Part shown: positions 6,933 to 10,873 of the stretch, piece by piece
Numbering within the stretch: position 1 is the stretch's first letter
Layout: each line of letters opens with the position of its first letter
IMG/VR virus record: IMGVR_UViG_3300048905_000040
Coordinates: 1-59,663 of that record
Reading direction: 5' to 3' (one strand)
Length of the DNA stretch: 59,663 nt
Source: a virus
The notes under the pieces: generated by a model
What the model was told of the DNA's origin: nothing
The model's database searches: none
What the model saw: only the letters and a program-made list of their open reading frames with translations
Program-made: the position numbers and the translations under genes

Positions 6933-7405
6933 GTAAATATTACTTCCGAAAAATGCCAGGCGGCACGCTGGTGCCGGACAACGACGAAACCGTCGAGCGC
7001 CTGCAAAAGATCAAGACCGGCGCGGTGGTCAGTTGCGAGATTGCCCAGCCGCGCAACTACAAGTTTTTGCAGAAGACGATTTGTTTGTACCGCTACTGTT
7101 TTGACGTGTTCGCCGAGCAGATGGAAGACAGCCATTTGGAATACCTGGGCATGAAGGCGGCGCCGTCCTTCGACCGCTTCCGGCATGACCTGACGATTCT
7201 GGCCGGGCACTACACGGCTACTTTTGACATCCAGGGCAAACTGAAGCTGGAAGCCAAGAGCCTGAGCTACGGCAAGTGTTCGGAAGAAGAGGCCGAACGC
7301 ATCTACAACGACGTGATTAACGCCGCACTGAAGCAAGTCTTCAAGCTGAGCATGACCGAAGATGAGTTGAAAAAGATCGTCGATCAGATATTGGGGTACG
7401 CATGA
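6929..7405 (+). CDS. DUF1367 phage protein
   Basis: A 158-residue protein with a GTG start at 6929 preceded by a strong GGAGGTGAC site. The N-terminus (SKYYFRKMPGGTLVPDNDET, TGAVVSCEIAQPRNYKF) and the middle (LTILAGHYTATFD) fit DUF1367, a family found in lambdoid Nin-type regions with unknown biochemistry, often beside recombination nucleases. Here it also sits among recombination genes, upstream of a methyltransferase, RecA-dependent nuclease and resolvase. The position suggests DNA metabolism but nothing more precise. Confidence 0.85.
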   Translation: MSKYYFRKMPGGTLVPDNDETVERLQKIKTGAVVSCEIAQPRNYKFLQKTICLYRYCFDVFAEQMEDSHLEYLGMKAAPSFDRFRHDLTILAGHYTATFDIQGKLKLEAKSLSYGKCSEEEAERIYNDVINAALKQVFKLSMTEDELKKIVDQILGYA

Positions 7406-8169
7406 CCGCCTACTACAACGAATTTGATCCGTATGCAGCCAAATGGCTGCGCAACCTAATCGAGGCTGGCCACATTGCACCAGGAGTTGTTGATGAGCGA
7501 AGCATTGAAGACGTCCTGCCAAGTGACCTCAAAGGGTTCACTCAATGCCATTTCTTCGCTGGGATTGGCGTTTGGTCCCTCGCTCTGCGTCGCGCAGGAT
7601 GGCCGGATAATCGACCAGTCTGGACAGGAAGTTGCCCATGCCAGCCTTTCAGCCCGGCAGGCAAAGGCGATGGGTTTGCTGATGAACGCCACCTATGGCC
7701 CTCATTCGCTTGGCTCGTCCAGCAGCGCAGACCTTCAGTCGTGCTTGGAGAACAAGTTGCGAGTGCGGCTGAATGGCTCTCATGTGTGCAGCGTGATCTG
7801 GAAGCCATGGATTACGCATTCGGGGCAATGCCTATCCAGGCCGCGAGCGCAGGTGCGTTCCACCTTAGGGACAGGATTTACTTTGTGGCCGACTCCGGCA
7901 GCCAGGGACTGGCGCAGCGAATCAGCCAGTCCAGAGTTCTACGCGAAGTGGCTTGCGCACCCGAAGGGCAAGACGCTGCCGATGTTGCTGGCTCTGGCCA
8001 GGCATGGTTCAACGGACCCGATGGCAAAAAGCGGCCAATTGAACCCGGCGTTCACCCGCTGGTTGATGAATCTTCCGCCAGAGTGGGACGATTGCGCGCC
8101 TACGGAAATGGGCTCGACGCTAAAGCAGCGCGCAGCTTTGTTGAGTCAGTAATGGAAACTAGAATATGA
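7402..8169 (+). CDS. DNA cytosine-C5 methyltransferase (first copy, compact)
   Basis: A 255-residue Dcm-type enzyme. Motif I is [18 protein letters not shown] (residues 50-67). The catalytic Pro-Cys-Gln lies in [14 protein letters not shown], with nucleophile Cys80. Motif VI is GEQV with Glu117, motif VIII is [10 protein letters not shown] (about 154-163), and motif X is LRAYGNGL near the end. The target-recognition region is very short, so specificity cannot be predicted. Methylation could protect phage DNA from restriction. From 7493 to 8152 the same DNA also carries a complete +1-frame ORF with its own ribosome-binding site. In the second half this frame has weaker codon bias and looser sequence than the overlapping one. 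The start overlaps the previous stop (ATGA). Confidence 0.9.
7493..8152 (+). CDS. Overprinted protein within the first methyltransferase gene
   Basis: A 219-residue ORF in the +1 frame relative to the surrounding methyltransferase gene. Its ATG at 7493 has a perfect AGGAG site 6 bases upstream. The product starts [16 protein letters not shown] and ends with [14 protein letters not shown], then [21 protein letters not shown] have seen this WPTP...D and LNP..WLM..P..W pattern in many phage proteins annotated beside or over Dcm-type genes, so I think it is a real family; that is recollection and was not checked. Third codon positions toward the 3' end favour G/C in this frame more than in the methyltransferase frame. 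Function unknown. Confidence 0.65.
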
Positions 8170-9218: not shown

Positions 9219-9449
9219 GTGAAAGGAACACAATCGCAGTGCGCGCAGATCCTCAAGTGGTTGCGCGAAGGAAAGCCCCTCACCCCGTTACTGGCCCTGG
9301 ACAACTTCGGTTGCTTCCGTCTCGCCGCTCGCATTGGCAACCTCAAGGCGGAAGGTCACACCATCCACAAAGGCATGATCACCGTCACCACCCGCGACGG
9401 CAGCCAATCTAAGGTGTCGGAGTATCGGCTGTGCGGGGTGTCGGTATGA
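9219..9449 (+). CDS. Small helix-turn-helix protein
   Basis: A 76-residue protein from a GTG at 9219. The sequence SQCAQILKWLREGKPLTPLL, then FGCFRLAARIGNLKAEGHTI is a typical phage winged-helix module (HTH_39-like) that lies before replication genes in many phages. DNA binding is likely; the target is unknown. Its stop overlaps the methyltransferase start in an ATGA. An upstream TTG at 9204 falls in the U-run of the RNA terminator, so the GTG is preferred. Position right after the structured RNA means its expression depends on read-through or a promoter inside that region. Confidence 0.8.
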   Translation: MKGTQSQCAQILKWLREGKPLTPLLALDNFGCFRLAARIGNLKAEGHTIHKGMITVTTRDGSQSKVSEYRLCGVSV

Positions 9450-10873
9450 AGTTCGGTTCCGTATGCAGTGGCATCGAAGCTGCTAGCGTGGCATGGGCGC
9501 CGCTGGGCTGGAAAGCTGACTGGCTGGCTGAAATCGAACCTTTCCCAAGTGCCGTGCTGGCGCATCACTATCCAGACACACCAAACCTTGGCGACATGAC
9601 GCAGATAGCGCGCGTGGTGCTGTCGGGGAGAGTGCCAGCTCCCGACGTGCTAACCGGCGGAACCCCATGCCAGGCGTTCAGCGTGGCCGGAATGCGCGAA
9701 GGGCTTAATGATCCTCGCGGTGAATTAACCATTAAATTTGTGGGGTTAGCTGATGCAATTGATCATGTTCGAGAAAGCCGAAACGAAAAGCCCAGCATCA
9801 TCATCTGGGAAAACGTACCCGGCGTCCTCAGCGACAAAGGGAACGCCTTCGGATGCTTTCTTGGTGCGCTTGCTGGGGAAGACTGCGAATTGCAGCCTTC
9901 AGGGAAAAGCTGGTCAAACGCTGGTTGTGTGTATGGACCCAAAAGAACAATCGCGTGGCGGGTCTTGGACGCCCAATATTTCGGCCTGGCCCAACGACGC
10001 CGCCGTGTGTTCGTTGTGGCAAGTGCTAGAGAAGGGTTCGATCCCTCATCGGTACTTTTTGAGCGTGATGGCGTGCGCCGGGATACTGCGCCGCGCCGAG
10101 GCACGGTCAAGGCTGTTGCCGCTCTCACTGCAAATGGCGTTGGAACGTGTGGCGAAGACGACAACCAAGCCCAGGCAGGACACATTATCGCGGGAACTCT
10201 AAACGCAGACGGAAAGTCGGCAGGAAGCGCTACCAACCAAGATGCAGAGGCTGGATTGCTGGTGGTTCATGGAACTCAAGATCCGGGCGTAAGCAACTCA
10301 ACGGCATTCGCGCTTGGTCGAAATCACGGACAGGAAAACGCAGTACTCGCCTTTAGCTGCAAGGATCATGGCGCAGATGCTGGCTCGATATCGCCAACTC
10401 TTCGCGCAATGAATCACTCAGGCAGCCATGCAAACGCCGGAGGCCAGGTCGCAGTGTGCGTCACTGGCGATATCACCCACACGCTCAAGGCTGAAGGGTT
10501 CGACGGCAGCGAGGACGGCACCGGGCGCGGCCAGCCAATTGTGACTCACGCAATCCAGGCAGGCGCGCTTCGCACAAACCCAGCGAGCGGGCCGGATGGT
10601 GTCGGCGTACAGGCCGATCACGCCTACACACTGGAAGCTCGCGCCGAGGTGCAGGCTGTTCAGTCGGGTTCAGCAGTTCGCCGCCTGACTCCGACCGAAT
10701 GCGAGCGCCTTCAGGGCTTCCCTGACGACTACACGCTGATCCCTTGGCGCGGCAAGCTTGCGGAGGATTGCCCGGATGGTCCGCGCTACCGATCTATCGG
10801 TAATTCATGGGCGGTTCCGGTCGCTCGCTGGGTGGGTATGCGCGTGATGCGCGAACTGGAGGTGGCGCAATGA
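9446..10873 (+). CDS. DNA cytosine-C5 methyltransferase (second copy, long target-recognition region)
   Basis: A 475-residue Dcm-type enzyme. Motif I: FGSVCSGIEAASVAW (residues 3-17). Motif IV: GGTPCQAFSVAG with nucleophile Cys75. Motif VI: IIIWENVPG (about 126-134). Motif VIII: LAQRRRRVFVVA (about 188-199). Motifs IX/X: TPTECERLQGFPDDY and YRSIGNSWAVPVARW at the C-terminus. Between residues 215 and 405 lies a long target-recognition insert rich in Asn, Ser, Gly and His. All catalytic motifs are present, so it should be active. Bases 9753-10202 also carry a +1-frame ORF. Start overlaps the HTH gene (ATGA); the end overlaps the replication gene. Confidence 0.93.
   Translation: MKFGSVCSGIEAASVAWAPLGWKADWLAEIEPFPSAVLAHHYPDTPNLGDMTQIARVVLSGRVPAPDVLTGGTPCQAFSVAGMREGLNDPRGELTIKFVGLADAIDHVRESRNEKPSIIIWENVPGVLSDKGNAFGCFLGALAGEDCELQPSGKSWSNAGCVYGPKRTIAWRVLDAQYFGLAQRRRRVFVVASAREGFDPSSVLFERDGVRRDTAPRRGTVKAVAALTANGVGTCGEDDNQAQAGHIIAGTLNADGKSAGSATNQDAEAGLLVVHGTQDPGVSNSTAFALGRNHGQENAVLAFSCKDHGADAGSISPTLRAMNHSGSHANAGGQVAVCVTGDITHTLKAEGFDGSEDGTGRGQPIVTHAIQAGALRTNPASGPDGVGVQADHAYTLEARAEVQAVQSGSAVRRLTPTECERLQGFPDDYTLIPWRGKLAEDCPDGPRYRSIGNSWAVPVARWVGMRVMRELEVAQ
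9753..10202 (+). CDS. Overprinted protein within the second methyltransferase gene
   Basis: A 149-residue ORF in the +1 frame of the methyltransferase gene, starting at an ATG with GGGG 7 bases upstream. The product has SWTPNISAWPNDAAVCSLWQ, then IPHRYFLSVMACAGILRRAE and LLPLSLQMALERVA. I recall closely similar small proteins (CAGILRRAE followed by LP..L..AL..VA) annotated in many phages over the same part of a Dcm gene; I could not check this. It parallels the overprinted ORF at 7493, in the same relative frame over a different methyltransferase. Function unknown. Confidence 0.6.
   Translation: MQLIMFEKAETKSPASSSGKTYPASSATKGTPSDAFLVRLLGKTANCSLQGKAGQTLVVCMDPKEQSRGGSWTPNISAWPNDAAVCSLWQVLEKGSIPHRYFLSVMACAGILRRAEARSRLLPLSLQMALERVAKTTTKPRQDTLSREL

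Follow-up and report, generated by a model that had tools for sequence, protein, structure and literature searches.

Background

The m5C methyltransferase M.EcoHK31I is composed of a large and a small chain, and the gene for the small chain is nested in that for the large chain, in another frame. The Rz/Rz1 pair of phage lambda is likewise a case of a phage gene located wholly inside another one in a different frame, with products that act together. Overprinting of Rz/Rz1 has been noted (PMC9409062), and M.AquI and M.EcoHK31I have been described as natural two-polypeptide m5C enzymes, the large chain of M.EcoHK31I comprising motifs I-VIII and X and its small chain carrying motif IX (PMC3404938). 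Here we analyse a viral IMG/VR record of 59.7 kb, called the window (the whole stretch of DNA under study), in which two genes of Dcm-type methyltransferases, Dcm1 and Dcm2, each contain a long open reading frame (ORF) in the +1 frame, called alt1 and alt2, respectively:

7402..8169, + strand: Dcm1, second m5C methyltransferase, putative large polypeptide (PF00145, 8.1e-12; phrog_363, 5.9e-74)
7493..8152 (open also from 7475), + strand: alt1, in the +1 frame of Dcm1 (ATG 7493; AGGAG 7482-7486)
8036..8089, + strand: motif-IX-like segment of alt1, 18 aa (weak profile matches to motif IX)
9446..10873, + strand: Dcm2, m5C methyltransferase, putative large polypeptide (PF00145, 2.6e-36; TIGR00675 over the cut-off)
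about 9665, + strand: motif IV (PCQ) of Dcm2
9742..9745, + strand: Shine-Dalgarno-like GGGG, 7 nt 5' of the alt2 ATG (from the sequence)
9753..10202, + strand: alt2, 149 aa, in the +1 frame of Dcm2 (ATG 9753, stop 10202; comparative evidence)
about 9809, + strand: motif VI (ENV) of Dcm2
9896..10120, + strand: main codons 150-225 of Dcm2, where synonymous change is most constrained (synonymous-change counts)
9992-10018, + strand: motif VIII (QRRRRVFVV) of Dcm2
10014..10142, + strand: conserved core of alt2, SLWQVLEKGSIPHRYFLSVMACAGILRRAEARSRLLP...AL (profile match to the segment following motif VIII in ordinary m5C methyltransferases)
10679-10726, + strand: motif IX (RRLTPTECERLQGFPD) of Dcm2
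about 10799, + strand: motif X (GNS) of Dcm2

The putative two-chain pair Dcm1/alt1 looks like M.EcoHK31I, with motifs I-VIII and X on the large chain and a candidate motif IX on the small one. Dcm2/alt2, however, differs from that enzyme in that Dcm2 retains motif IX and alt2 bears a different segment, and since RRLTPTECERLQGFPD is in frame in Dcm2, this pair is not of the EcoHK31I type. Lambda Rz/Rz1 shares the nested layout, but its lysis proteins are unrelated to those studied here in sequence and function. Among described sequences, ORF28 of K1ind1 ('putative Mte8-like protein') is an annotated member of the alt1 family that overlaps its C-specific methylase; phrog_1008 and phrog_31772 match alt1, while phrog_16143 matches some alt2 members, weakly. 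All three PHROGs are labelled 'DNA methyltransferase' without the overlap being noted, and none of them matches alt2 of the window.

In literature searches on overprinted phage methyltransferase genes we found no paper describing the alt1 or alt2 overlap. ORFs of the alt1 type are already annotated now and then, and alt2 is essentially unannotated. In Xanthomonas phage FoX4 only alt1 is annotated, as a hypothetical protein, in Pseudomonas phage Riah neither Dcm1 nor alt1 is, and in both phages both frames are open; the alt1 annotated in FoX4 and the one missed in Riah both turned out to overlie Dcm. In P1 only dmt is annotated, as an enzyme that 'perhaps' methylates C5.

Results and discussion

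The two overlapping gene pairs

The original prediction, made from the window alone, was that a 149-codon ORF with the motif CAGILRRAE lies in the +1 frame of a Dcm-type gene, preceded by a plausible ribosome-binding site, and that an unrelated ORF overlaps a second methyltransferase gene about 1.3 kb away in the same relative frame. All these elements were recovered: alt2 contains the motif and occupies the +1 frame of a gene that matches PF00145, the GGGG stands 7 nt from its ATG, Dcm1 is located 1.28 kb from Dcm2 and has its own +1 ORF, and the alt1 and alt2 products exhibit no detectable relation (hhalign P 0.62). One mycobacteriophage alt2 weakly matches phrog_1008 (E 0.0039); treating alt1 and alt2 as one family was dropped, as there is no profile similarity between them. 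Linkage of the two pairs was not supported: just 1 of the 80 Dcm2 loci examined, and 1 of the 61 genome loci, has Dcm1/alt1 nearby, and the idea of a joint system was abandoned.

The alt2 frame is conserved and under selection as a coding sequence

The prediction had also proposed a comparison of ORF length with shuffled controls, and here the two cases diverged. The 230 stop-free codons of alt1 exceed the 115 found in codon-permuted Dcm1 (p=0.005), whereas the length of alt2, with 150 stop-free codons where codon-permuted Dcm2 averages 95, was not significant (p=0.07), and single-gene ORF length was dropped as proof of alt2. The latter result speaks for the view that there is no protein at all, and that the open frame is a by-product of the coding of Dcm motifs, of codon usage or of a conserved DNA or RNA element. 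We therefore turn to homologs, which were fetched by the Dcm2 protein only (78 distinct sequences, the window's own included), so that the sample is free of selection for the +1 frame. The alt2 core is open in 77 of these 78, compared with 10.6 expected from codon permutation, and the alt1 core in 73 of 75 homologs, compared with 2.4. Compared with the window, the alternative frame has an identity of 0.60, which drops to 0.31 upon permutation; the real value is above all permutations in 20/20 cases. In E. coli dcm, stops are present in the +1 frame at the equivalent stretch.

Substitution patterns point in the same direction. Within main codons 150-225 of Dcm2, synonymous changes amount to 0.39, 0.23 and 0.19 of expectation (39 disjoint pairs; z -13 to -18), compared with 1.05-1.5 outside the alt2 overlap in the same pairs. 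Over codons 200-225, identity is higher for the +1 protein (89%) than for Dcm (77%). Here the first, second and third positions of main codons diverge by 0.20, 0.08 and 0.08, a reversal of the usual third-position excess and a signature of coding in the +1 frame, not of an RNA or DNA element. In a two-frame substitution test, dNN/dNS is 0.49 (0.37-0.65) and dSN/dSS 0.29 (0.22-0.43) inside the overlap, against 1.1 and 1.2 outside, the ratios falling below 1 only inside; alt1 exhibits the same trend in a weaker form (0.68 and 0.47). The codon-permutation and two-frame tests thus refute the alternative that the code of the motifs favours an open +1 frame, and the wider view that no protein is made is already contradicted by the comparative data, which leave it scarcely credible. 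On the grounds of the conserved open frame and ATG, the synonymous constraint and the conservation of the +1 product, alt2 is, judging from these comparisons, a protein-coding gene under purifying selection, and its existence as a gene is near certain.

Start sites and predicted expression

The ATG of alt2 spans an Asp/Asn codon of Dcm2 and the next codon and is kept in 75 of 78 homologs, while elsewhere in these genes just 44% of Asp/Asn codons end in T. In the window an in-frame TAG (9747-9749) lies two codons 5' of it, and in many homologs there is a stop in the alternative frame one to three codons 5' of the ATG. Most homologs have GGAG or GGAA upstream, about 7 nt off (in P1 gtggagcttgcaaATG), and the mean energy of the anti-Shine-Dalgarno duplex is -4.3, a moderate difference from the -2.1 obtained for codon-resampled upstream regions. 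The +1 frame could instead be reached by programmed frameshifting, with a Dcm-alt2 fusion and no separate protein as the outcome. Frameshifts in phage methyltransferase genes have been mentioned (PMC10274946), and as the alt2 core begins on the DNA of motif VIII, a shift at that point would fuse motifs I-VIII to the core. The kept ATG and the nearby upstream stops make a separate start likelier, however, and conservation of the +1 frame extends far to the 5' side of motif VIII, so that we regard frameshifting as improbable. These comparisons thus give alt2 a start of its own inside Dcm2, from which it is predicted to be translated.

For alt1 the likely start in the window is the ATG at 7493, with AGGAG 5' of it. 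At this position (main codon 36) 67 of 75 homologs have ATG, 61 of those 67 together with a Shine-Dalgarno core. The relevant Arg codon is AGG in 38 of 75, compared with an overall AGG usage of 8%, and the Asp codon is GAT in 68 of 71.

Distribution, linkage and decay

A homolog of alt2 is present in the +1 frame of P1 dmt (NC_005856.1:66728-67201), with gtggag 7 nt 5' of its ATG, and others were found in a mycobacteriophage and in clostridial phages (Ruminococcus and Oscillospirales). Diverged versions occur in the distant Dcm genes of two Caulobacter phages, phiCbK and CcrColossus, and of Javan261, an AT-rich phage of Streptococcus; in these genes stops fill the +1 frame everywhere but over this stretch. 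The altered core of phiCbK and CcrColossus (LYMSPSRRLTLLNNAIRAGRTLSPELTAAL) retains the pattern of helices and has lost the residues CAGILRRAE. Among Pseudomonadota, alt2 was found in 5 of 299 genomes (about 1.7%, a count that includes the genome used as centre). A genome scan gave 61 alt2 loci, mostly from Pseudomonas, which also provides the closest bacterial matches, with others in Rhodobacteraceae, Azospirillum and an Acidobacteriia MAG.

All 80 viral loci found by the alt2 profile alone have Dcm in the -1 frame, and all 61 loci of the genome scan also match Dcm2; a free-standing alt2 was sought in both sets, with 0 cases among the 80 and none among the 61. In Vibrio phage 1.270.A and its relatives, phages of Vibrio lentus, Dcm2 is cut short at 163 codons and the alt2 frame is disrupted with it, possibly a case of joint decay.

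In five loci (L349, L353, L356, L367 and L070) the C-terminal half of Dcm2 is absent or out of frame and alt2 is open; the loci L349 and L353 yielded no C-terminus of Dcm at all.

What the alt2 core resembles

Dcm2 can be aligned with M.HhaI over motifs I-VI, VIII and IX-X, and nothing recognisable was found in that alignment between motifs VIII and IX. This region (10080-10660 in the window) is hypervariable, with homologs ranging from 404 to 816 aa, and contains recurring blocks, e.g. HGTQDPxxxxxxAxxLGRNxGQENA and pTLxA, which gives the impression of shuffled modules that determine target specificity. The alt2 core (SLSQVLE..IP.RYFLS.KACAGILRRA) aligns with the segment directly C-terminal to motif VIII in ordinary enzymes (LxxILE..V..KYxLS.K...). 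In a comparison with the methyltransferase alignment A5 it gave an hhalign E-value of 8.5e-4 and a score of 31.1, with none of 60 column shuffles above 20.0; against 80 synonymous-remapped nulls, the score was 26.8 versus at most 22.5. Taken singly, the matches of both alt proteins to parts of methyltransferases are short and weak (hmmsearch E 0.05 to 14), and hhalign probabilities for alt2 are 16-36% at best. Because part of the core is encoded by the DNA of motif VIII, it is difficult to see how the core could be directly homologous to the segment that follows this motif, and the resemblance may be convergent.

The N-terminal half of alt2 is variable and predicted to be disordered, and the conserved C-terminal core is predicted to comprise three helices (88-94, 105-117 and 124-135 in the AF2 model). 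Both models, that of alt1 included, are of low confidence (mean pLDDT 55 and 60), with moderate values at the alt2 C-terminus (72-82 in the block of residues 101 to 140). Fold searches with both models returned nothing usable, sequence searches of the PDB with both profiles returned nothing, and no model with a relation to alt2 was found in Pfam (E<=10) or NCBIfam.

Two loci, L356 (Pseudomonas abyssi) and L297, have an alt2 frame that extends into motifs IX-X as a single ORF (426 and 310 codons, respectively), and motifs I-VIII end in the other frame; these loci could also be simple frameshift mutants. Their arrangement, with motifs I-VIII on one ORF and IX-X on another, is like that of M.AquI, which also has two chains. 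The Dcm2/alt2 pair of the window, unlike M.AquI, has motifs IX-X on the Dcm2 chain and not on the second polypeptide, and its extra chain is nested, not encoded downstream.

Dcm1/alt1 and motif IX

By inspection, Dcm1 carries motifs I, IV, VI (GEQV), VIII and X, i.e. the set I-VIII plus X of an EcoHK31I-type large chain. No motif IX was found in frame, the TIGR00675 match covering residues 65-159 only and the hhalign alignment to A5 ending at motif VIII. The conserved end of alt1 (LNPAHSRWLMGLPPEWD) has 6 of its 8 best weak matches to real methyltransferases on motif IX, compared with 0 in reversed controls, and hhalign places it on RRLTPRECaRLMGF of that motif. Its profile score is 26.0, versus at most 19.7 in 60 shuffles; E-values of single matches are weak and hhalign probabilities are 0.3-4% at best. 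Dcm1/alt1 is most likely a parallel case, with a putative motif IX on the overlapping polypeptide.

A two-part enzyme or an accessory protein

We propose that alt2 and Dcm2 together form an m5C methyltransferase in two parts, akin to M.EcoHK31I, with alt2 as the smaller chain, a reading to which we assign a probability of about 0.55. It is suggested by the tie of alt2 to Dcm, which holds in all 80 loci picked by alt2 and in 77 of the 78 picked by Dcm2; by the loss of alt2 along with the truncated Dcm2 of the Vibrio lentus phages; by the Dcm genes of phiCbK, CcrColossus and Javan261, which keep the +1 frame open just there; by the resemblance of the alt2 core to the segment following motif VIII and of alt1 to motif IX, combined with a Dcm1 devoid of in-frame motif IX and a Dcm2 devoid of a recognisable VIII-IX segment; and by the arrangement in L356 and L297, together with the existence of natural two-polypeptide enzymes. 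Against this reading, motifs IX and X are present in Dcm2 itself, which is thus not obviously incomplete, and alt2 persists in L349 and L353, where a C-terminus of Dcm was not detected. The weakness of the single matches, the difficulty with direct homology, the low-confidence models and the empty fold searches count against it as well.

Under such a scheme Dcm2 would provide the catalytic motifs I-VIII and IX-X, and alt2 would add in trans a segment, presumably the stretch by which ordinary enzymes connect motif VIII to the target-recognition domain; the two chains would assemble, and both would be required for activity. The nested frames would yield both chains from one message and force their joint inheritance. 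As to the origin of the pair, we can speculate that a small-domain segment was displaced in frame and that the old frame was then overprinted.

Alternatively, alt2 may be an independent accessory protein, e.g. a small basic DNA-binding, regulatory or counter-defence protein, that is merely carried inside Dcm2. Its own start and Shine-Dalgarno-like sequence agree with this, as do the open alt2 frames in loci with a truncated or split Dcm2 (L349, L353, L070 and L367) and the lack of any relation to methyltransferases in Pfam and NCBIfam. We nonetheless find this the less probable explanation, which has to account for an alt2 that was never found apart from Dcm in the 80 loci and is almost never lost while Dcm2 is intact (kept in 77 of 78), for a core resembling a methyltransferase segment, and for the parallel of Dcm1/alt1 with its motif IX. 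For the same resemblances, of alt1 to motif IX and of alt2 to the segment following motif VIII, the new class of methyltransferase-associated proteins envisaged in the prediction seems less likely than displaced parts of methyltransferases.

Extending the two-part reading to the whole family, such that alt2 proteins of P1, mycobacteriophages and phages of Gram-positive bacteria supply a target-domain segment in trans and many phage 'Dcm' proteins, P1 Dmt included, are obligate two-chain enzymes, is a more tentative step, to which we give somewhat less than even odds.

Conclusion

Gene callers retain one frame and discard the other, and statistics of ORF length in a single gene miss real overlapping genes that comparative codon statistics detect. 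Should the small chains prove necessary, phage Dcm genes cloned and expressed in recoded form would lack activity without a visible cause, and the C5 activity of P1 Dmt, qualified by 'perhaps' in its annotation, would become testable. If the two-chain reading is true, gene overlap in phages can hold the parts of one enzyme together.
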